The position numbers and the translations under genes were made by a program. Below the pieces are notes generated by a model. The model was not told the origin of the DNA, searched no databases, and was given only the letters and a program-made list of their open reading frames with translations. From assembly GCF_000515255.1 (NCBI RefSeq), contig NZ_KI911559.1, positions 406,149 through 470,148 on the forward strand: DNA of 64,000 nucleotides, in the 5' to 3' direction. The stretch is from Rhodovibrio salinarum DSM 9154. Its GTDB lineage: Bacteria; Pseudomonadota; Alphaproteobacteria; Kiloniellales; Rhodovibrionaceae. Positions 331-30,841 of the stretch are shown here, piece by piece (position 1 is the stretch's first letter; each line of letters starts with the position of its first letter).

Positions 331-2178
331 CTACCCGGCCTTGCTCACCTTCTGCTCGCGCTTGCGCTGGTTGGGATCCAGCGTGCGCTTGCGCAGACGG
401 ATCGCGGTCGGGGTCACTTCCACGAGCTCGTCGTCGGCGATGTAGGACATCGCCTGCTCGAGCGCCATGCGCACCGGCGGGGTCAGTTTGATCGCCTCGT
501 CCTTGCCGCTGGCGCGCACGTTGGTGAGCTGCTTGGCCTTCACCGGGTTGACCTCGAGGTCGCTCGGCCGGGCGTGCTCGCCGATCACCATGCCCTCGTA
601 AACGGTGTCGCCCGGATCGATGAACAGCGTGCCGCGATCCTCGAAGTTGTTCAGCGAGTAGGAGGTCGCCTGGCCCTGTGCCTGCGAGATGATCGCGCCG
701 TTGCGCCGCGCCGGCACCGAGCCCTTGAACGGCGCGTAGCCGTCAAACACCCGGTGCATCAGGCCGGTGCCGCGGGTGTCGGTCATGAACTCGCCCATGT
801 AGCCGATCAGCCCGCGCGCCGGCACGCGGAAGGCGATCCGCGTCTTGCCGCCGCCGGACGGCTTCATGTCGACCATCTCGCCGCGGCGCTGCTGCAGCTT
901 CTCCATCACCGTGCCGGAGTGCTCGTCGTCGACGTCGATCTGGACGTACTCGATCGGCTCCAGCGTTTCGCCGGTGTTCGGATCCTGCTGGAAGATCACC
1001 TTGGGCCGGGAGATCGACAGTTCGTAGCCTTCCCGGCGCATGCTCTCGATCAGCACGCCCAGCTGCAGTTCGCCGCGGCCGGCGACCTCGAAGGACTCCT
1101 TGTCCGCGCTTTCCTTGATGTCGAGCGCGACGTTGCCCTCCGCCTCGCGCAGCAGGCGCGTGCGGATCAGCCGGCTGGTGACCTTGTCGCCCTCCTTGCC
1201 GGCAAGCGGGCTGTCGTTGATCGAGAAGGTCATCGACAGGGTCGGCGGGTCGATCGGGTCGGCCGGGATCGGCTCGGTGACCTCGGGCGAACAGATCGTA
1301 TCCGCGACGGTGGCTTCGCTCAGGCCGGCGATGCAGACGATGTCGCCCGCCTGGGCCTCCTCGACCGGTACGCGCTGCAGGCCGCGGAAGGCGAGCAGCT
1401 TGGTCAGGCGGCCGCTTTCCAGCACCTTGGAGCCGTCGCGCGCGATCGCCTTGACCTGCATGTTCTGCTTGGCCGTGCCCTCGAGCACGCGACCGGTCAG
1501 GATCCGGCCCAGGTAGGGGTCGGCCTCGAGCACGGTGGCGAGCAGCTTAAACGGCTTGGTCTCGTCGCCGTGGGCCTGGGGCACGCGCTCCAGGATGCTC
1601 TCGAACAGCGGGGCCATGTCCTGGCGCTCGCCGTCCGGCTCCAGCGCCGACCAGCCTTCCTTGGCGCTGGCGAACACGGTCGGGAAGTCGAGCTGCTCCT
1701 CGTTCGCTTCCAGCGCGGTGAACAGGTCGAACACCTCTTCCTGGACCTCCCAGGCGCGGGCATCCGGCCGGTCGGCCTTGTTGACCACCACGATCGGCTT
1801 CAGGCCCTTGGCCAGCGCCTTCATGGTGACGAACTTGGTCTGTGGCATCGGGCCTTCGGCCGCATCGACCAGCAGCAGCACGCCATCGACCATGTTCAGG
1901 ATGCGCTCGACCTCGCCGCCGAAGTCGGCGTGGCCCGGCGTGTCGACGATGTTGATCTGGTTGCCGTTCCACATCAGCGAGGTGCACTTGGCCAGGATGG
2001 TGATGCCACGCTCACGCTCCTGGTCGTTCGTGTCCATCGCCCGGTCGGCGATCTGCTGATTCTCGCGGAAGGTGCCGCTTTGACGCAGCAGCTGGTCGAC
2101 CAGGGTGGTCTTGCCGTGGTCAACGTGGGCGATGATGGCGAGGTTGCGGGGCGCGCCCTCGCGGATCGGTTCGCTCAT
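331..2178 (-). CDS. typA: Translational GTPase TypA/BipA
   Basis: 615 aa, full length for TypA/BipA, a ribosome-associated GTPase of the EF-G/LepA class that supports 50S assembly and growth under stress. Seen: P-loop [12 protein letters not shown] near residue 18, switch [14 protein letters not shown] near 79, NKADRP near 132, then the EF-G-like domains and the family C-terminal domain ([19 protein letters not shown] near 515). The ATG at 2178 is preceded by AGGACA. It is the downstream neighbour of an adenosine kinase with a 111-bp gap, and a strong hairpin follows it. Identification is secure; a role in cold or acid stress here is inferred from family knowledge. Confidence 0.97.
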
Positions 2179-2289: not shown

Positions 2290-3285
2290 TCAGTCCCGCA
2301 TAGCCTGCGCGATCAGGTCCTTCAGCGGCATCTCCGGCCGGGCGCCGACGTGGGAGATCGCCTCCGCCGCTGCGACCGCGCCGATCCGGCCGCAGTCGGG
2401 CAGGCTGTAGCCCTGGGTAAAGCCGTAGAGAAAACCGGCGGCATAAAGATCGCCGGCACCGGTGGTATCGACCAGGCGCGTCGGCGTCGCCGCATCCACC
2501 ACGTGGACATCCTCACCCGAAAGCACAAGCGACCCCTTCTCGCTGCGGGTCAAAGCGGCGACCTCGCAGTGGCCGCGGACGTGCTGCAGGGCGTCGTCGA
2601 AGTGATCGACCTGATACAGCTTGGTGATCTCGCTTTCGTTGGCAAACAGGATGTCGACGTGGTTCTCAACCAGGTCGAGGAAACTCTCGCGGTGACGGTC
2701 GACGCAGAAACCGTCGGACAGCGACAGGGCGACCCGGTTGCCGGCGGCGTGCGCGGCCTTGGCCGCTTCGACGAACGCTTGCTTGGCGGCCGGGGCGTCC
2801 CACAGATAGCCTTCCAGGTAGGTTATCTTCGCGTCTGCGATCTGTTGGTGATCCAGGTCGTCCGGGCCCAGCTCGGTGCTGGCGCCAAGGAAGGTCGCCA
2901 TCGTGCGCTGGGCATCCTCGGTCACGAACACCAGGCAGCGCGCGGTCGGCAGCCCGCTGTTCGCCGATGGGGTTTCGAACTCCACGCCGGTTGCCTGGAT
3001 GTCGTGGCGGAAGATACCGCCCAGCTGATCGTTGCGCACCTTGCCAACGAAGGCACCGCGCCCGCCCAGGCTGGCTAGGCCCGCCATGGTGTTGGCGACC
3101 GAGCCGCCGGACATTTCGGTGGCCGGGCCCATCGCTTCGTACAGGCGATGCGCCTGATCGCTGTCGATCAGCGTCATGCCGCCTTTGGGCAGCTCGTGTT
3201 GATTCAAAAAGGCCTCGTCGGACCGCGCGATCACGTCGACGATCGCGTTGCCGATGCCCAGCACGTCGATGCGCAGTTCGCTCAT
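2290..3285 (-). CDS. Adenosine kinase, PfkB family
   Basis: 331 aa sugar/nucleoside kinase of the PfkB (ribokinase) superfamily, of the type annotated as adenosine kinase in alphaproteobacteria. Seen: N-terminal substrate region DVLGIGNAIVDVIA, the glycine-rich GGSVANTMAGLASLGG (PfkB signature 1), and the C-terminal anion-hole/catalytic motif DTTGAGDLYAAGF with its catalytic Asp (signature 2). It would phosphorylate adenosine to AMP with ATP in the cytosol. It is transcribed toward typA and may share its transcript. Substrate cannot be fixed from sequence alone; another nucleoside or sugar is possible. Confidence 0.85.
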   Translation of the reverse strand: MSELRIDVLGIGNAIVDVIARSDEAFLNQHELPKGGMTLIDSDQAHRLYEAMGPATEMSGGSVANTMAGLASLGGRGAFVGKVRNDQLGGIFRHDIQATGVEFETPSANSGLPTARCLVFVTEDAQRTMATFLGASTELGPDDLDHQQIADAKITYLEGYLWDAPAAKQAFVEAAKAAHAAGNRVALSLSDGFCVDRHRESFLDLVENHVDILFANESEITKLYQVDHFDDALQHVRGHCEVAALTRSEKGSLVLSGEDVHVVDAATPTRLVDTTGAGDLYAAGFLYGFTQGYSLPDCGRIGAVAAAEAISHVGARPEMPLKDLIAQAMRD

Positions 3286-13083: not shown

Positions 13084-13326
13084 GATCAGCTTTCCGGACC
13101 CTTTGCGTTTCCAGCGCGTGGCTCCAGACAGGGGGTCGCCGCCGCAACCTCTTGAACCTGTCGCATCCGTCTTTCCCGAAACCCGCTGCAAACGCCGGTT
13201 CAAGAAGGCAAAGACCCACTGCAAATGGAAATGGTTTGTCATGATCTCCAGGATCGCGAAAAGTGATCGGGCGCTGCGATCGTCGGTTCACGTTTGGTTG
13301 GCCCGCTTTCGGTTGGGAGATCCGGT

Positions 13327-14277
13327 GTGCAGTTGAAGGCTTTGCGGCTGTTTATGGCCGTCGCGCGAACGCGCAGTTTCGTCGCCGCCGCCGAAGCTGA
13401 GAACACCGTCCAGTCCAACGTCACCGCGCATGTGAAAAAGCTGGAAACGGAATTGGGCGTTCGGCTGCTACGCCGTCAGCCGGGCGACGTGCAGTTGACC
13501 TCGGCGGGCCGACGGTTGCTCGAGCACGCCGAAGCGATCTGCCAGCGGCACGACGCGGCCATCGACGAGTTCGTGACCGGCGGGACCCAAGTGCGCGGCC
13601 GGCTGCGGATCGGCGCCATGGAAACGACGGCCGCGATGCGCCTGCCGCCGATGCTGACGGCGTTCCAGCAGGCCAACCCGACCGTCGACGTGGTGCTATC
13701 CACGGGCCCGAGCGCGCAGTTGCTTGACCGGTTACAGACGGGCGAGCTCGACGCGGCGTTCGTCGCGGCGACCCTGCCCGGCTCGGAGTTCGAGCAGAAA
13801 GTCGTGTTCCGGGAACGGCTGGTGCTGGTCTCCGGCCGGCCGCTTATGGGTCTGTCCGATCGGGAGACGCTGTTGCGCGCGCGCTTCTACGCCTTTCCCC
13901 AGGGCTGCAGCTATCGCCGACAGATCGACCGGCTGTTGAACCGACTGGGGCTGCCACCGGCGCGCGTGTCGGAAATGGGCAGCCTTGACGCGATCCTCGG
14001 CAGCGTCGCCGCCGGCCTCGGCTTCGCCGTGCTGCCCGCGGGTGTCGTCGAGACGTTCCGGGAGCGCTATCCGGTCTACGCGATCGACTTCGGGCAGCCG
14101 GACGAGGCCGAGATGGACACCTATCTGATCGCCCCTAGGGTTGAGGTGGCCAGCCCGGCGGTGCGCAGCTTCGTCGAGTTCTTTGGCACACAATCGCAAG
14201 GCGGGGCGGAGACGCAGCGCGCACATGCGCTGGACGATGAGGGCGCATCGCTAATTCGCGCGGTCACGAAATCCTGA
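13327..14277 (+). CDS. LysR family transcriptional regulator
   Basis: 316 aa. N-terminal winged helix-turn-helix (QLKALRLFMAVARTRSFVAA, ENTVQSNVTAHVKKLE) and the LysR substrate-binding domain (GRLRIGAMETTAAMRLPPML, AAGLGFAVLPAGVV). The GTG at 13327 follows TTGGGAGA and gives the standard N-terminus; no better ATG exists. LysR proteins usually control the divergent gene and themselves, so the target is probably the MFS-GST operon, with the shared 243-bp region as the operator. The QSNVTAHVKKLE recognition helix and SYRRQIDRLLN region resemble PtrR/YneJ-like LysR proteins; effector unknown. Confidence 0.92.
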   Translation: MQLKALRLFMAVARTRSFVAAAEAENTVQSNVTAHVKKLETELGVRLLRRQPGDVQLTSAGRRLLEHAEAICQRHDAAIDEFVTGGTQVRGRLRIGAMETTAAMRLPPMLTAFQQANPTVDVVLSTGPSAQLLDRLQTGELDAAFVAATLPGSEFEQKVVFRERLVLVSGRPLMGLSDRETLLRARFYAFPQGCSYRRQIDRLLNRLGLPPARVSEMGSLDAILGSVAAGLGFAVLPAGVVETFRERYPVYAIDFGQPDEAEMDTYLIAPRVEVASPAVRSFVEFFGTQSQGGAETQRAHALDDEGASLIRAVTKS

Positions 14278-14346: not shown

Positions 14347-15372
14347 ATGCTGATCAAGCGCAAGCGCGCCTGGGACCTGCCGGAAGCCGCGGCGACGGAC
14401 GAGGCGGCCTTCCTCAATCGGCGCGCGTTCGCCAAGCTGTTCGCCGCCGGCAGCATCGCCGCAGCGACCAGCAGTGTCCCGTTTGCTGGCCCTGCCGAGG
14501 CGGCGGAGGCGGTCGGCCCGCCGGCGGGCGACCCGAGTGCCGGGATGTACCCGTTCGAGCGCAACGGCGCCTACGCCCTGGAGCGGCCGCTGTCGCAGGA
14601 GCGGCTCGTCTCTACCTACAACAACTATTACGAGTTCGGCTCGTCCAAGACGATCTGGCGTAAGGCGCGCGAGATGCCGGTGCGCCCCTGGCAGGTCCAG
14701 ATCGACGGCATGGTGGAAAAAGAGCAGACGGTCGACATCGACGATCTCCTGAATCGGATGCCGCTGGAGGAACGCCTTTACCGGCACCGCTGCGTCGAGG
14801 CCTGGTCGATCAACGTCCCCTGGAGCGGCTTCCCGATGGCCGCGCTGGTCGATTTCGCCCGGCCGCTGTCGGGGGCGAAGTACGTGCGGATGGAAACCTT
14901 CGTCGATCGCGACGTCGCCTCCGGTCAGCGGGCGAGTTGGTATCCCTGGCCTTATGTCGAGGGGCTGACGATCGAGGAGGCGACCAACGAGCTCGCCTTC
15001 CTGGCGACCGGAATGTACGGCCATCCGTTGCCGCAGCAGAACGGCGGACCGCTACGTTTGGCGGTGCCGTGGAAGTACGGCTTCAAGTCGGTCAAAGGCT
15101 TGGTACGTTTCACCTTCACCGATCAGAAGCCGCTCACCTTCTGGCACGAGGTGCAGGGTAGTGAGTATGGCTTCTGGGCCAACGTGAACCCGGAGGTCGA
15201 CCACCCCCGCTGGTCGCAGGCCTCCGAGAAGTTCCTGCAGTCGACCGATGACATCGGTTTCGCCGCCAGCCCGAAAGAGGTGCCGACCCAGAAGTTCAAC
15301 GGCTACGGCGAACAGGTCGCCCACCTCTACACGGGTCTGGAGAAGGAGTACGGCGTTAAGCTGTGGCGGTGA
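14347..15372 (+). CDS. msrP: Protein-methionine-sulfoxide reductase catalytic subunit MsrP
   Basis: 341 aa periplasmic molybdopterin enzyme. A Tat signal is visible (LNRRAFAKLFAAGSIAAATS, twin Arg then F and K). The sulfite-oxidase-fold domain follows: YNNYYEFGSSK, the Mo-ligand Cys in LYRHRCVEAWSINVPWSGFP, and AVPWKYGFKSVKGLVRF. MsrP repairs oxidised methionines in envelope proteins using electrons from the heme membrane subunit MsrQ. No msrQ-like gene is adjacent: the next gene is xthA on the other strand, 46 bp away. Assignment is strong; the electron donor must be elsewhere or different. Confidence 0.94.
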   Translation: MLIKRKRAWDLPEAAATDEAAFLNRRAFAKLFAAGSIAAATSSVPFAGPAEAAEAVGPPAGDPSAGMYPFERNGAYALERPLSQERLVSTYNNYYEFGSSKTIWRKAREMPVRPWQVQIDGMVEKEQTVDIDDLLNRMPLEERLYRHRCVEAWSINVPWSGFPMAALVDFARPLSGAKYVRMETFVDRDVASGQRASWYPWPYVEGLTIEEATNELAFLATGMYGHPLPQQNGGPLRLAVPWKYGFKSVKGLVRFTFTDQKPLTFWHEVQGSEYGFWANVNPEVDHPRWSQASEKFLQSTDDIGFAASPKEVPTQKFNGYGEQVAHLYTGLEKEYGVKLWR

Positions 15373-24675: not shown

Positions 24676-25413
24676 CTAAATCCCGCTACCCGACCCCTGC
24701 TGCGCCCACCAGGCGTTGTGGATGCCGCATTCGGTCTTTTCCATGCCCGACCAGCGGCCGGCGCGGGCGTTCTCGCCCTCGGCGACGCGGCGGGTGCAGG
24801 GCAGGCAGCCGATCGAGGGGTAGCCCTGGTCGACCAGTGGGTGACGCGGCAGCCCGCGCGCGTTGAAGGCGGCGTCGACGTCGTTCTGGGTCCAGTCGGC
24901 GAGCGGGTTCACCTTGACCCGGCCGTCGACCAGCTCGACGCGCGGCAGCCCCTCCCGGGTCGCGGTCTGGAAGCGCTTGCGGCCGGTGATCCAGGCATCG
25001 AAACCGGTGAGCGCGCGTTCCAGCGGTCGGACCTTGCGCAAGGCGCAGCACCGATCAGGATTGACCGACCAGAGGTGACCGTCCGGGTCGGTCTGCTTGC
25101 GGTCGGCTTCGTCCGGTTGCTCGTTGCGCACGCCCGTCAGGCCGAGCTTGGCGATCAGCCGGTCGCGGTAGCGCAGCGTCTCTGGGAAGTGCTTGCCCGT
25201 CTCCAGAAAGATCACCGGGGTCGCCGGGTCGATCCGCGAGATCATGTCGAGCAGTAGGGCCGCCTCGGCGCCGAACGAGGACACGGCCGTGATCGTGCCC
25301 GGAAAGTGCCGGGTGATCGCTAGCGCCAGCAGTTCCTCGCCGGTTAGTCCTTCGGCGTCGCGTTCCAGCGCCCGCTGGCGGTCCAGCGGGGTGATCGGGG
25401 TGCTTCCGTCCAT
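24676..25413 (-). CDS. cysH: Assimilatory phosphoadenylyl/adenylyl-sulfate reductase
   Basis: 245 aa. Reduces activated sulfate to sulfite. Seen: SSFGAEAALLLDMIS, the iron-sulfur ligands CCALRKVRPL and YPSIGCLPCTRRV (CC ... CxxC, the pattern of APS-type reductases with a 4Fe-4S cluster), and the C-terminal catalytic Cys in TECGIHNAWW. The cluster pattern suggests APS rather than PAPS as substrate. Last gene of the cys operon, 15 bp after the DUF934 gene. Confidence 0.95.
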   Translation of the reverse strand: MDGSTPITPLDRQRALERDAEGLTGEELLALAITRHFPGTITAVSSFGAEAALLLDMISRIDPATPVIFLETGKHFPETLRYRDRLIAKLGLTGVRNEQPDEADRKQTDPDGHLWSVNPDRCCALRKVRPLERALTGFDAWITGRKRFQTATREGLPRVELVDGRVKVNPLADWTQNDVDAAFNARGLPRHPLVDQGYPSIGCLPCTRRVAEGENARAGRWSGMEKTECGIHNAWWAQQGSGSGI

Positions 25414-25428
25414 GGCAGCGATTCTCGC

Positions 25429-25932
25429 TTACTCCGCAGCCCGGGGCGCGTGGCGGCGCCAGGGTGCGGGTTGGGTCCCGTCGGCGGCCTTCTGGTAGAC
25501 GACCGAGATGCGCTGCAGCGCGCGCTGCCACGCCTCGGCCGTCTGGTCGTCGACCTCGAAACAGTCGAACCCGCAGCGCACCAGGAAGATCGCCTGGTCC
25601 TGCAGCACGTCGCCGGTCGCGCGGATTTCGCCGGTGAAGCCGTAGCGCTGGCGCAGCAGGCGCGCCTGAGAGTAGGCCCGGCCGTCCTTGAACGCCGGAA
25701 ACTCCAGCACGACAGCGTCGAGCTTGGGCAAATCGTCGGCGATGTCCGCGACCGGCTGGTCGTTCTTCAGGCGCACGCCCAGCGCGGCGTTGCGTCCCTC
25801 CAGCGCGTGACGGTTCTCCTGGAACACTTCGGCCGGAAGGATCGTCGCCTGGCCATCGGGCAACGCGTCCAGCGTCTCGACCTCGACCCAGGGATCGGTG
25901 AGGCGCGCGCCGGTACGGTCAATCAGCGGCAT
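25429..25932 (-). CDS. DUF934 sulfur-assimilation accessory protein
   Basis: 167 aa. Recognised by LDAVVLEFPAFKDGRAYSQA, LLRQRYGFTGEIRATGDVLQ, LVRCGFDCFEV and the Trp-rich end. DUF934 genes nearly always sit beside cysI/cysH; the biochemical role is not established to my knowledge. The ATG at 25932 (MPLIDRTGARL) overlaps the cysI stop by 14 bp, implying translational coupling. The C-terminal 15 residues are basic and Pro-rich. Confidence 0.9.
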   Translation of the reverse strand: MPLIDRTGARLTDPWVEVETLDALPDGQATILPAEVFQENRHALEGRNAALGVRLKNDQPVADIADDLPKLDAVVLEFPAFKDGRAYSQARLLRQRYGFTGEIRATGDVLQDQAIFLVRCGFDCFEVDDQTAEAWQRALQRISVVYQKAADGTQPAPWRRHAPRAAE

Positions 25933-27574
25933 AGAGCTTCTCCCGGAAGGGCTCGGCACCGACGCGGCGATAGGTCTGCAGAAAGGCCTCGCCGTCCCGG
26001 CGGTTCTCCAGATAGGCGTCGACCAGCGTTTCGACGGCGTCGACCACCTCGTCGTAGGCGAAGCCCTTGCCGACGATTTCGCCCAGGCTGGCGGTCTCGT
26101 CCGCGCTGCCGCCGATCGTCAGCTGATAGAACTCCTCACCCTTCTTATCGACACCCAGGATGCCGATGTGGCCAACGTGGTGGTGGCCGCAGGCATTGAT
26201 GCAGCCGGAAATCTTGACCTTCAGTTCGCCAATATCGTGCTGCCGGTCGAGGTCCTGGAAGCGCTCCTGAATCCGCTGGGCGACCGGAATCGACCGGGCG
26301 TTGGCGAGCGAGCAGTAGTCCAGACCCGGGCAGGCGATGATGTCGGAGATCAGGCCGACGTTCGCCGTTGCCAGGCCGTGGTGCTTGAGCTCCTGCCACA
26401 GCTGATAGAGATCTTCTTGGCGCACGTCGGGCAGGGTCAGGTTCTGCTCGTGGGTCACGCGGATCTCGCCCAGCGCGAAGCGGTCGGCGAGCTCGGCGAC
26501 CGCCTCCATCTCCTCCGCGCTGGCGTCGCCGGGGGCGCCGCCATGCGGCTTCAGGGAGACGTTCACGATCGCGTAGCCCGGCTGCTTGTGCGCGGCCACG
26601 TTGGCCTGTACCCAGCGCGCGAAAGCGGGATCGTGCTGGCGCCAAGCAGCGTAGGCCGGCGGGTCGTCCGGCAGGTCCGCGTACTGCGGCGGGGCAAAGT
26701 AGGCCTGGATGCGCTCCAGCTCGCCGTCCGGCAGGTCGAGTTCCTGGTCTGGCATCGCCTGCCATTCTTCCTCGACCCGACGGGCGAACTCCTCCGCGCC
26801 GACCGCATTGACCAGGATCTTGATGCGCGCTTTGAAGGCGTTGTCGCGCCGGCCGAGCTGGTTATAGACGCGCAGCACCGCCTCCAGATAGCTGAGCAGG
26901 TGACGCTTGGGCAGGAAGTTCCGGATCGTTTTGGCGATCACCGGGGTCCGGCCCTGTCCGCCGCCGACCAGCACCTCGAAGCCGGGCTCGCCGTTCGCAT
27001 CCCGGGTTATGCGCAGGCCGACGTCGTGTACCGCGATCGCCGCACGGTCCTCCTGGCAACCGGTAACGGCCACCTTGAACTTGCGCGGCAGGAACGAGAA
27101 TTCCGGGTGCAGCGTCGACCACTGCCGGATGACCTCGGCGTAGATACGCGGGTCTTCGATCTCGCCCGCCGCCACGCCGGCGTACTGGTCCGCGGTGGTG
27201 TTGCGGATGCAGTTGCCGGACGTCTGGATGGCGTGCATCTCGACCTCCGCCAGCTCGGCCAAGAGGTCCGGGATATCCTTCAGCGCCGGCCAGTTGAACT
27301 GGATGTTCTGGCGGGTGGTGAAGTGGCCGTAGCCCTTGTCGTAGACGCGTGCGACGTGGGCCAGCTTGCGCATCTGGGTCGACGACAGCGTGCCGTAGGG
27401 GATGGCGATGCGCAGCATGTAAGCGTGCAGCTGCAGATACACCCCGTTCATCAGCCGCAGCGGCTTGAACTGGTCTTCGCTCAGCGCGCCGGACAGGCGG
27501 CGGTTCACCTGTTCGCGGAACTGTTCGACACGGTCGTTGACCAGGGCCTGATCGAATTCGTCGTAGCGGTACAT
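25919..27574 (-). CDS. cysI: Sulfite reductase hemoprotein (nitrite/sulfite reductase family)
   Basis: 551 aa. Reduces sulfite to sulfide. Seen: N-terminal MYRYDEFDQALVNDRV, GYGHFTTRQNIQFNWP, TSGNCIRNTTADQYAGVAAG, and the siroheme/4Fe-4S ligands CPGLDYCSLANARSIP and KISGCINACGHHHVGHIGIL. No flavoprotein cysJ is in the operon, so ferredoxin or an unlinked reductase is the likely donor (inference). The ATG at 27574 fits family start; the frame continues upstream only through the DUF2849 gene region. Confidence 0.95.
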   Translation of the reverse strand: MYRYDEFDQALVNDRVEQFREQVNRRLSGALSEDQFKPLRLMNGVYLQLHAYMLRIAIPYGTLSSTQMRKLAHVARVYDKGYGHFTTRQNIQFNWPALKDIPDLLAELAEVEMHAIQTSGNCIRNTTADQYAGVAAGEIEDPRIYAEVIRQWSTLHPEFSFLPRKFKVAVTGCQEDRAAIAVHDVGLRITRDANGEPGFEVLVGGGQGRTPVIAKTIRNFLPKRHLLSYLEAVLRVYNQLGRRDNAFKARIKILVNAVGAEEFARRVEEEWQAMPDQELDLPDGELERIQAYFAPPQYADLPDDPPAYAAWRQHDPAFARWVQANVAAHKQPGYAIVNVSLKPHGGAPGDASAEEMEAVAELADRFALGEIRVTHEQNLTLPDVRQEDLYQLWQELKHHGLATANVGLISDIIACPGLDYCSLANARSIPVAQRIQERFQDLDRQHDIGELKVKISGCINACGHHHVGHIGILGVDKKGEEFYQLTIGGSADETASLGEIVGKGFAYDEVVDAVETLVDAYLENRRDGEAFLQTYRRVGAEPFREKLYAAD

Positions 27575-27588
27575 CGCTCTTACGTTCC

Positions 27589-27930
27589 CTAAGCGCTGCG
27601 ACCCGTGGACCCCGCGCCCGCCAGCTCGGCCTGCTTGCCGAGATCGGGGCGCACGCTCGGTCCCTTGGCGCGCATCACTTCCTTCATGTGACTGGGCTTC
27701 ACCGTCCCGTCCGCCTGCGGTTGAACCGCGAACAGATAGGGCGCGACCACGGAGGTTCCGGCGAACGCCTCGGCGCGTTCCAGCAGCGCCTCCTGCGCCT
27801 GCGGATCTTCCGCCCAGTCGGTCTGTTCGGGCGTTTCCGCCCAAACGTCCTCAGGCGTCAGATAGACCACGACGCCGTCGCTCAGGCGGTTCGCGGTCAC
27901 GGCCTTGGGTCCCTTGGCCTTGGCTGCCAT
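27589..27930 (-). CDS. DUF2849 protein of the cys operon
   Basis: 113 aa. Small soluble protein with KAVTANRLSDGVVVYLTPED, ERAEAFAGTSVVAPYLFAVQ and a C-terminal GPSVRPDLGKQAELAG. This family occurs between cysG and cysI in alphaproteobacteria and no function has been shown that I know of. 14 bp before cysI and 39 bp after cysG, so it is part of the operon and probably of siroheme-enzyme function. Confidence 0.9.
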   Translation of the reverse strand: MAAKAKGPKAVTANRLSDGVVVYLTPEDVWAETPEQTDWAEDPQAQEALLERAEAFAGTSVVAPYLFAVQPQADGTVKPSHMKEVMRAKGPSVRPDLGKQAELAGAGSTGRSA

Positions 27931-27969: not shown

Positions 27970-29397
27970 TCAGCCCTGCAGGGCAAGCGCGCGCGGTTGG
28001 ACGTGGACGGGTGCGGCGGCAGCGGTCTGCCGCGCGCCCTCGGCGAACGCGGCGACCTGGCCGATGATCAGCATCGCCGGCCCGCGCACGCCCTGCGCCG
28101 CGACCGTCTGGCCGAGTGCGGCCAGCTGGGTCGGCAGGACGCGCTCGTCCGCCGTGGTGCCGTTCTCGACGATCGCCGCTGGCGTATCCGGGCTCAGCCC
28201 ATGGGCGATCAGCCGCTCCGCCACGCGTTCGGCGGTGGCCACGCCCATGTAGATCGCCAGCGTGTGGTTGGCGCGCGCGAGCGCGGCCCAGTCCGGCTCC
28301 TGATCACGGCTCGCCGCGTGCCCGGTGACGAAGGTGACGGCGTGGGCATGGTCGCGGTGGGTGAGCGGGATGCCGGCCGCCGCCGCGCAGCCGGTCGCCG
28401 CGGTGATGCCGGGGACCAGCTCGACCTGGACGCCGGCGGCGCGCAGGGCCGCGACCTCTTCCCCGCCACGGCCGAACACGAAAGGGTCGCCGCCCTTGAG
28501 ACGGACCACCTTGGCACCGGCGCGTGCGTGGCGGATCAGCAGGTCGTTGATCTCGTCCTGCGTCTTGGCGTGCGCTCCCGGGGCCTTGCCGACATCGATC
28601 CGCTCGGCGTCGCGGCGTGCGTAGTCGACGATTTCCGCGGGCACCAGGCGGTCGTGGACCACGACGTCGGCGCGCTGCAGGAAGCGCACGGCCTTGAAGG
28701 TCAGGAGATCCGGATCTCCCGGCCCAGCGCCGACGATCGCCACCTGACCGGTCTCTGCCTCCGTGGCTTCGCCATTGACCAGGCGCATCATGCCTTCGCG
28801 GGCCTTCGCCTCGCGGCCGGCCAATACGTCGTCGGCAACGGCCGAATCGAAGAATCTCTCCCAAAAGCGCAGGCGCTGCGGGCCCGGCGGCAGGCGATTG
28901 GCGACCGCTTCGCGGAAGCTCTCGGCAAAGCCGGTTAGCTCGCCGATGCGCGCAGGCAGCATCGCTTCCAGCTTTTCCCGGATACGCCGGGCCAGGACCG
29001 GCGCGGCGCCGGCGCTGGAGATGCCGATCGTCAGCGGATCGCGGTCGACAATCGCGGGCGTGATGAAGGTGCAGGCCCAGGGGCGGTCGACTACATTGAC
29101 CGGCACGTCGCGCGGACGGGTGACCTTGGCCACCGCCTCGTCGACATCGCCGCGGCCGGTGGCGGCGATCACCGCCGCCTTGCCCGGCACGTCATAATAC
29201 TTAAAGCAGCGGGCGATATGCTCGATCCCGCCGTCGCGCGCGAGCGCCGCCAGCTCGTCGTCCAGCCGCCGGGCGACCACGACCACCCGGGCGTGCGCCT
29301 TGCGCAGCAGACGGACCTTGCGCGCGGCATTTTCCATGCCGCCGACGACCAGCACGGGCCGATCGCGGATGTCGAGGAAGGCCGGGAAGTAGCGCAT
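27970..29397 (-). CDS. cysG: Siroheme synthase CysG (fused dehydrogenase/chelatase and methyltransferase)
   Basis: 475 aa. First module (about 1-205), precorrin-2 dehydrogenase/ferrochelatase: FPAFLDIRDRPVLVVGGMEN, ISSAGAAPVLARRIREKLE. Second module (about 215-475), uroporphyrinogen-III C-methyltransferase: VAIVGAGPGDPDLLTFKA, VVHDRLV, RLKGGDPFVFGRGGEE, VVPGIT-like LVPGITAATG. Makes siroheme for CysI. The ATG at 29397 opens with MRYFPAFLDI; the upstream frame is not conserved-looking. First gene of the operon; a promoter and a nested palindrome lie upstream. Confidence 0.95.
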   Translation of the reverse strand: MRYFPAFLDIRDRPVLVVGGMENAARKVRLLRKAHARVVVVARRLDDELAALARDGGIEHIARCFKYYDVPGKAAVIAATGRGDVDEAVAKVTRPRDVPVNVVDRPWACTFITPAIVDRDPLTIGISSAGAAPVLARRIREKLEAMLPARIGELTGFAESFREAVANRLPPGPQRLRFWERFFDSAVADDVLAGREAKAREGMMRLVNGEATEAETGQVAIVGAGPGDPDLLTFKAVRFLQRADVVVHDRLVPAEIVDYARRDAERIDVGKAPGAHAKTQDEINDLLIRHARAGAKVVRLKGGDPFVFGRGGEEVAALRAAGVQVELVPGITAATGCAAAAGIPLTHRDHAHAVTFVTGHAASRDQEPDWAALARANHTLAIYMGVATAERVAERLIAHGLSPDTPAAIVENGTTADERVLPTQLAALGQTVAAQGVRGPAMLIIGQVAAFAEGARQTAAAAPVHVQPRALALQG

Positions 29398-29515
29398 CGC
29401 GAACCCCTTTGCCGCGGCCCGGCGCGCCATGCTGCTGAGGCGAGGCGGCCACCGGTTAATTTCCGCGCTACGGCGTGTGTTTTTTGGATTTGCCGCAAAA
29501 CGCTTCGTAGAATTT

Positions 29516-29544
29516 GAAATAGGCTGTCGGCCAGTCCGTGTCAA
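29516..29544 (-). promoter_or_regulatory. Candidate sigma-70 promoter of the cys operon
   Basis: On the minus strand a perfect TTGACA (29544-29539) is followed by 17 nt and TATTTC (29521-29516). The -35 is ideal and the -10 weak, which would suit an activated promoter. It lies about 120 bp before cysG. Confidence 0.5.
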
Positions 29545-29548
29545 GTAA

Positions 29549-29600
29549 TCCCACATTCTCAGTGTCGTTATAGGATTATAACACATCTAAGAATGTGGGA
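29549..29600. promoter_or_regulatory. Two nested coaxial inverted repeats upstream of the cys operon
   Basis: Outer arms 29549-29559 and 29590-29600 (core CCCACATTCT/AGAATGTGGG) are perfect over 11 bp. Inner arms GTTATA (29567-29572) and TATAAC (29577-29582) share exactly the same centre, 29574.5. The block lies just upstream of the TTGACA box in an AT-rich island. It could be an activator or repressor site, or a terminator-like cruciform behind hemW. Confidence 0.6.
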
Positions 29601-29647
29601 ATTAACCGACCCCGACAGTACGCTTTCGGGTCACCCTAGGCCAAGCG

Positions 29648-30841
29648 TCAGCCTAACAGGTGGTCGATCACAGCATTCAGCCGCAACCGACCTTCCGCCG
29701 TCGCCGCCAGACTCTGCGCGTTCAGGGTCAGATAGCCCGCTTCCTGCAGTGCCTCCAGCCGGTCGGCGTCGAACAGTGCCTCCGGCTGCGCCCCCAGCTC
29801 GCGCTGGAACGCGTCGCGGTGGATGCCCTCGGCCAGACGCAGGCCCATCAGGGTCATCTCCTGGCGTTTCTGGGCCGCGTCCAGGGGATCGCGGGCGCGG
29901 GTGGCGTGGCCGGTGCGGCCGACCGCCTCCAGCCAGGCTTCCGGCGCGGAATGCTGGCGGGTGGCGTGCTTGGTGCCCTGCACCGTCACCCGGCCGTGCG
30001 CGCCGGGCCCGATGCCGAGATAGTCGCCGTAGCGCCAGTAGGTCAGGTTGTGCCGGCTTTCCTGCCCCGGCATCGCGTGATTGGACACCTCGTACGCGTT
30101 CAACCCGCGTGCGCCCAGCGTCTCGTCGGTTGCCTGGAAAATCGCGGACTGCGTGGCGTCGTCCGGCAGGGCGAGCTCGCCGCGCCGCCAGGAGGCGTGA
30201 AACGGCGTACCGGGCTCGATCGTCAACTGGTAGATCGAGAGGTGCGCCGGCCCTTCTTCGAGCGCGCGGGCGAGTTCGTCCGCCCAGCTCTCCGGCGTCA
30301 TGCCGGGGCGCGCGGTGATCAGGTCGAACGACATCCGCGGAAACGCCCGACGCGCCAGGTCGACCGCCGCCAGCGCCTCGTCGGCCGAGTGCTGCCGCCC
30401 CAGGAACGCGAGGGCGCGGTCGTCCAGCGCCTGCACGCCAAGCGACACGCGGTTGACCCCGGCGGCACGGAAGCGGGCGAACGCCTCCGCTTCCACACTC
30501 GTGGGATTGGCCTCCAGCGTGATCTCGGCGTCGTCGGCCAGATCGAACCGTTCGGCAACCCGGTCGATCAACGCCTCCGCCGTTTTGGGATCCATCAACG
30601 AGGGCGTACCCCCGCCGAAAAAGATCGAGGTGACGCGGCGCCCAGCCATTTCGTTGGCGTAATGGTCTAGTTCGGCCAGCAGCGAGCGGCGCCAGAGGTC
30701 GTGGTCGACCGCGCCGCGCACGTGGCTATTGAAATCGCAATAGGGGCATTTCTTCAGGCAGAAGGGCCAGTGGACGTAGACGCCGAAGCCAGGATCGGGC
30801 GCCCGGTCTGCCCGCGTCTGCAGCGCGGGCGCGCCCGTCAT
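29648..30841 (-). CDS. hemW: Radical SAM heme chaperone HemW
   Basis: 397 aa. The radical SAM cluster [14 protein letters not shown] is near residue 28, followed by [31 protein letters not shown] and a HemW-type C-terminal domain. The family resembles oxygen-independent coproporphyrinogen oxidase HemN, but HemW has a heme-trafficking role. Its ATG at 30841 overlaps the rdgB stop (ATGA), so translation is coupled. Distinguishing HemW from HemN rests on length and lack of the N-terminal HemN extension. Confidence 0.93.

Follow-up and report, generated by a model that had tools for sequence, protein, structure and literature searches.

The DNA directly upstream of the cysG-cysI-cysH promoter of Rhodovibrio salinarum is read here as the upstream operator of a promoter that depends on an activator, a reading that draws on sequence comparison and to which we assign a probability of about 0.55. 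The putative operator would consist of multiple half-sites spread over the size expected for a LysR-type tetramer, and its conspicuous symmetry would be a species-specific feature and not a functional one. The window, by which the whole stretch of 64,000 nucleotides that was analysed is meant, carries the operon in the order cysG-DUF2849-cysI-DUF934-cysH, preceded by a hemW-like gene in the same direction (Table 1). On the minus strand, the DNA 5' of the cysG leader consists of TCCCACATTCTTAGATGTGTTATAATCCTATAACGACACTGAGAATGTGGGA, then TTAC, TTGACA, 17 bp and TATTTC. The promoter at TTGACA faces the cysG operon, and transcription is predicted to start near position 29509. With a spacing of 17 bp the -10 hexamer TATTTC is a poor one, and a sigma-70 consensus scan listed no promoter at TTGACA / TATTTC.

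Table 1. Features around the proposed operator, in coordinates of the window, and SAM_alpha matches upstream of cysG, in coordinates of the named loci of relatives.
Feature	Position	Strand	Remark
Coaxial dyad / hairpin, proposed operator	29549..29600	.	outer arms 29549-29559 and 29590-29600, inner repeat 29567-29582
CAC half-site, 53 nt 5' of -35	29595..29597	-	modal CAC distance in relatives
TGTG half-site, 11 nt 5' of -35	29552..29555	-	modal TGTR distance; also in R. sodomensis
-35 hexamer TTGACA	29539..29544	-	TTGACT in R. sodomensis
Presumed weak -10 hexamer TATTTC	29516..29521	-	TATTCC in R. sodomensis; absent from consensus scan
Leader block	29456..29515	-	52/59 aligned bases shared with R. 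sodomensis
cysG (siroheme synthase), first gene of the operon	27970..29397	-	start codon by eye
DUF2849 gene	27589..27930	-	
cysI-like gene	25919..27592	-	nitrite/sulfite reductase domains; true start inside this open frame
DUF934 gene	25429..25959	-	
cysH-like gene	24676..25413	-	PAPS reductase domain
hemW-like gene, 5' of dyad	29648..30841	-	Radical SAM and HemN_C domains; stop 47 bp before dyad
SAM_alpha before cysG	L016 1389-1463; L026 2928-3002; L028 1396-1470; L029 2933-3007; L144-L149		
SAM_alpha, tandem pair before cysG	L031 1155-1232 and 1282-1356		

An outer inverted repeat of 11 bp and an inner one of 6 bp had been reported at this site with a common centre at 29574.5, and a check of the coordinates found them to be exactly coaxial, with the minus-strand layout TCCCACATTCT-N7-GTTATA-ATCC-TATAAC-N7-AGAATGTGGGA. 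The two repeats are not separate objects, since they fuse into one near-continuous hairpin of 23 pairs at 29549-29600, in which one pair is G-T and two single-base bulges occur. As DNA the hairpin folds with -16.2 kcal/mol (z -7.9, with none of 200 shuffles equally good), and a slightly longer stretch folded as RNA reaches -30.9 kcal/mol (z -7.2). In an ungapped count, 24-bp arms around a 4-nt loop agree at 19 of 24 positions, which is the top count of the whole 64 kb when loops of 0-7 are considered, and at least two other places in the window, centred at 24601.5 and 20558.5, reach 18. Mononucleotide shuffling of the 77-bp island gave at best 18 arm matches, 19 being reached in none of 20000 shuffles. 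The AT-rich island described by the sequence-only reading is borne out by the AT content, which is 60% over 110 bp, compared with 44% over 330 bp. Its TTGACA box likewise stands, but the gap between dyad and box is 4 bp (29545-29548) and not 5 bp.

The genome search that had been proposed for GTTATA-N4-TATAAC returned a single occurrence in the whole genome. No regulon was found in the same genome with the pattern AATGTGGNATNNNTTGACA, which gave one exact match, the dyad site itself, along with one match with two and twelve with three mismatches, the reversed control giving 5 matches. Among 58 genomes, a 105-base DNA query had matches in none but that of the window, and there it also hit its own reverse complement. 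Applying Rfam to 29300-29800 with E values up to 5 yielded five weak matches, all far below their gathering scores, namely one 3' UTR family and four microRNA families whose matches trace the hairpin.

The order is represented here by 61 genomes, of which 38 contain a cysG orthologue at E <= 1e-120, and upstream DNA was compared for the 37 other members (L005-L033, L143-L150) together with named loci of the genome collection. In many of these relatives the cysG promoter has an AT-rich island 5' of TTGAC or TGGAC. A 38-wide motif model made from 20 relatives, with Rhodovibrio left out, reached a log-likelihood of 187.8 compared with 101-109 in four shuffled controls, the real set having been given 20 starts and the controls 8. 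Among the cysG promoters that lack the motif are those of L033, L143, L148 and L150. Perfect TGTR-N14-YACA was present in 8 of 44 non-redundant relatives (retained from 55 after removal of near-duplicates; in L007 and L019 the counted match differs from the place picked by eye), whereas 25 shuffles gave 0.8 on average and never more than 2. With the gap set to any other length between 4 and 25, 0-2 perfect matches were obtained. This dyad, the clearest one of the relatives, is absent from the element in both the window and R. sodomensis (L034).

The distances of half-sites from the -35 hexamer were determined for 54 retained relatives without Rhodovibrio, 22 of which could be anchored, 15 by TTGAC and 7 by TGGAC. 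In the TTGAC-anchored set the distance of CAC peaks at 53 (3/15, P 0.016) and that of TGTR at 11 (4/15, reached in 0/1000 shuffles), with weaker peaks for the two further patterns CACA/CACT/CATT (P 0.058) and TGTG (P 0.027). The near-duplicates excluded from this comparison include L032, with TGTG at 11, and L089, L146 and L147, with CAC at 53. Both modal sites are present in the window, a combination that 25 of 200000 shuffles of its 66-mer also show, the half-site patterns having been chosen with the window sequence already known. Both sites occur together in just one of the 15 TTGAC-anchored relatives (L030), and R. sodomensis has TGTG at 11 and, instead of CAC at 53, CGC at 54. Taken together, the half-sites of the window, CAC at 53 and 20 and TGTG at 41 and 11, form a crude mirror arrangement. 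The seven TGGAC-anchored relatives show CACA/CACT/CATT at 41 (4/7) and TGTR at 30 (5/7), each equalled in 0/1000 shuffles, as well as CAC at 41 and 43 (two each, P 0.099), peaks that are inflated by shared ancestry, all seven belonging to one genus. On these distances Rhodovibrio appears to fit the half-site pattern of its relatives in part.

The eight genomes of the one genus from which the pattern was derived were searched with TGTR-N14-YACA joined to TGGACA, allowing at most one mismatch. Six of them gave an exact match, in every case at cysG, as the construction of the pattern predicts; of the other two genomes, one has a mismatched cysG site and one has none. There was one unrelated match, compared with 20 matches of the reversed control in the same genomes. 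No second target at this spacing was therefore found in the eight genomes, a search that differently spaced sites would escape.

The sequence-only reading had also stated that no CysB-like regulator gene lies in the window, which has to be qualified. A LysR-type open reading frame is present at 13294-14277, about 15 kb from the element, and matches Escherichia coli CysB at 27% over 247 residues. Judged by eye, it is flanked on one side by a divergent transporter-like gene and on the other by a gene resembling molybdopterin oxidoreductases (14347-15372, MsrP-like). This frame is one of 16 CysB matches in the genome, which is 99% complete, and no clear CysB orthologue was found among them, the best match reaching 28% over 246 residues (E 6.8e-22). 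True CysB orthologues with 53-54% identity are present elsewhere, in L053 and L055, and a tblastn search with CysB over a set of the loci gave no match in most. Partial LysR-type matches, at 29-30% to E. coli CysB, lie about 1.3 kb 5' of cysG in the alphaproteobacterial loci L047 (1262-1690) and L063 (1232-1681). Two copies of CysDN exceed the family cut-off in the genome, and the composition 5' of one of them (L127) revealed no comparable island. For one family of sulfate-binding proteins the genome gave no match.

Six neighbourhoods of 16-17 kb, inspected by eye, contain no regulator gene beside cysG, but ArsR-like (L137, L138), GntR-like (L142) and response-regulator-like (L139, L141) genes are found within them. 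In L033 (3079-3525) and L143 a gene that by eye is Lrp/AsnC-like lies divergent to cysG and is possibly a lineage-specific local regulator. A dyad 5' of a promoter suits many regulator families, and with these Lrp/AsnC-like genes and the ArsR-like genes, which are several kb away, one can construct the alternative that the dyad is, in whole or in part, the site of another kind of regulator, such as an Lrp/ArsR-type protein or a repressor. We consider this unlikely. The site ends 4 bp 5' of the -35 hexamer, the usual position of an activator, and an Lrp-like gene accompanies cysG in two loci only, whose promoters are without the motif seen elsewhere.

The closest named relative found is R. sodomensis, whose cysG is 91% identical. 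In this species another open reading frame, which may be DUF169-like, separates the hemW-like gene from the element and cysG. Despite the intervening gene, the element, the -35 hexamer (5/6), the -10 hexamer (5/6) and the leader (52/59) remain beside cysG. The hairpin stretch is identical at 33 of 52 positions, with 14/24 in the promoter-distal arm and 18/24 in the proximal arm; for the spacer the figure is 11/17, and for the 20 bp outside the hairpin 10/19. Judged by this alignment, conservation of the hairpin stretch as a whole is only modestly above that of its flank, and good conservation is seen in the hexamers, the leader and the arm nearest the promoter.

The fold itself is not shared. 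The homologous 71 nt of R. sodomensis form no hairpin (z -0.47, with 59 of 200 shuffles equally good), GTTATA-N4-TATAAC is lost and the outer arms are not complementary, so that the self-complementarity by which a conserved cruciform would be recognized is missing in this species. A lack of conservation of both repeats in relatives had been named beforehand as evidence against the dyad, and it applies to the inner repeat and, in part, to the outer one. The comparison suggests that the striking symmetry is peculiar to the species of the window. A cruciform driven by supercoiling, or a merely mutational quasi-palindrome to which no protein binds, would account for the long, nearly complementary arms with their z of -7.9, and symmetry in one species only would fit a recent mutational origin. 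Such an explanation is nevertheless improbable, because the loss of complementarity in R. sodomensis (z -0.5), with 18/24 of the proximal arm kept, is the pattern of sequence recognition and the half-site distances are common to relatives. Very improbable is a role of the hairpin as hemW transcription terminator or 3' end protector, for which its strong fold as RNA and its place downstream of hemW, 47 bp beyond the stop, would speak, as no T-run follows it (the next sequence is TTACTTGACA), a terminator scan does not list it, and in R. sodomensis hemW is followed by another gene while the hairpin-less homologous element still precedes cysG. Both the cruciform and the terminator are thus disfavoured.

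For the preferred reading, an operator of an activator-dependent promoter, the following picture is proposed. A regulator in multimeric form would occupy about 53 bp immediately 5' of the -35 hexamer, roughly from -88 to -36 relative to the predicted start, and touch the CAC and TGTR half-sites at their set distances. By doing so it would assist RNA polymerase at a promoter whose -35 hexamer is good and whose -10 hexamer is poor. The combination of a perfect -35 hexamer, a poor -10 hexamer and half-sites that extend over about 53 nt and end at the -35 suggests a promoter that requires an activator. The footprint of a LysR-type dimer of dimers is about as large as this half-site span. From these features we infer binding of a protein, activation, and a likeness to a LysR-type dimer of dimers, and the promoters of relatives suggest that the element is an ordinary kind of docking region for a candidate activator. 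The near-perfect symmetry is taken for a species-specific elaboration, which could have arisen for instance by template-switch correction of a cruder dyad, although the direction of the change is not readable from two species. Of the dimer-of-dimers operator proposed earlier, the size and position find partial support in the association with cysG and the recurring distances, whereas the coaxial palindrome or cruciform as the functional unit is not supported, given the missing fold in R. sodomensis. More generally, a palindrome that looks spectacular in a single genome can be decoration added to a site of lower symmetry.

A wider proposal is tentative and rather doubtful. The siroheme and sulfite-reductase genes of the order might be run, instead of by CysB, by an undescribed regulator with very few targets that recognizes CAC/TGTR half-sites placed about 41 or 53 nt from the -35 hexamer, at a fixed helical spacing, with a SAM-II-like riboswitch layered in the leader of some lineages. 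With half-site distances that are met again and again in the order, this kind of promoter region offers a concrete bait with which to look for the regulator.

With regard to the leaders, matches to SAM_alpha (SAM-II, RF00521) lie directly 5' of cysG and in the same direction in 11 of the 37 order relatives (Table 1). All of these matches are below the gathering score (25.7-34.2 compared with 36 bits), and L062, a named metagenome locus, passes it with 37.2. The SAM_alpha-like leaders may be divergent SAM-II riboswitches on the cys operon. A further SAM_alpha match in L026 (4028-4102) exceeds the gathering score with 42.5 bits and is located about 1.1 kb 5' of the cysG-adjacent one. TPP riboswitches above the gathering score are found divergent from cysG in L030 at 1225-1321 (-) and in L032 at 3071-3167 (+). 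The leader of both Rhodovibrio species also holds an open frame, FYExFCGKSKKHTP, which in the window extends over 29468-29554 to its first stop. Over 33 codons aligned with R. sodomensis, 7, 4 and 8 changes fall on codon positions 1, 2 and 3, and from codon 15 on the numbers are 2, 0 and 5. At one codon R. sodomensis has AAG and the window TAG; a start codon for the frame is absent 3' of the predicted transcription start. A search for the peptide in 385 genomes of the class returned the own genome and one chance-level match at E 0.0097.

In comparison with known systems, the arrangement resembles the CysB-controlled cys promoters of enteric bacteria, in which regulatory DNA likewise lies directly 5' of the -35 hexamer of sulfite-reductase genes. 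The difference is that the best CysB match here has 28% and, as far as the neighbourhoods were read, is not beside sulfur genes. CysB is mentioned in the accessible part of PMC5002191, according to which LysR-type operators are AT-rich dyads 5' of the -35 hexamer over some 50 bp, as is the element described here. Their extended consensus CTATA-N9-TATAG was not seen, the inner repeat here being TATA-N4-TATA, and T-N11-A can be read in the inner repeat but is trivial in such AT-rich DNA. The half-sites span 53 nt and end 4-11 nt before the -35 hexamer, compared with a LysR-type protected region of about 50-60 bp that reaches as far as the -35. SAM-II / SAM_alpha regulons, for which the available text of PMC4239095 names metY, metA and metX as targets, share with the present case the sulfur amino-acid genes and the SAM_alpha-like leaders before the operon of relatives; they differ in that neither the window region nor R. 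sodomensis has a SAM_alpha match. The literature found on the topic, consisting mostly of the starts of abstracts, does not name the present promoter, and in it CysB-less control of sulfite reduction in alphaproteobacteria is little described. The nearest parallel is Agrobacterium, likewise an alphaproteobacterium without a close CysB. The part of PMC11975290 available to us contains no binding motif for LsrB or OxyR, but it reports only a distant CysB-like protein (24.7%) and proposes these two other LysR-type proteins as stand-ins that are suggested to have taken over the cys genes.
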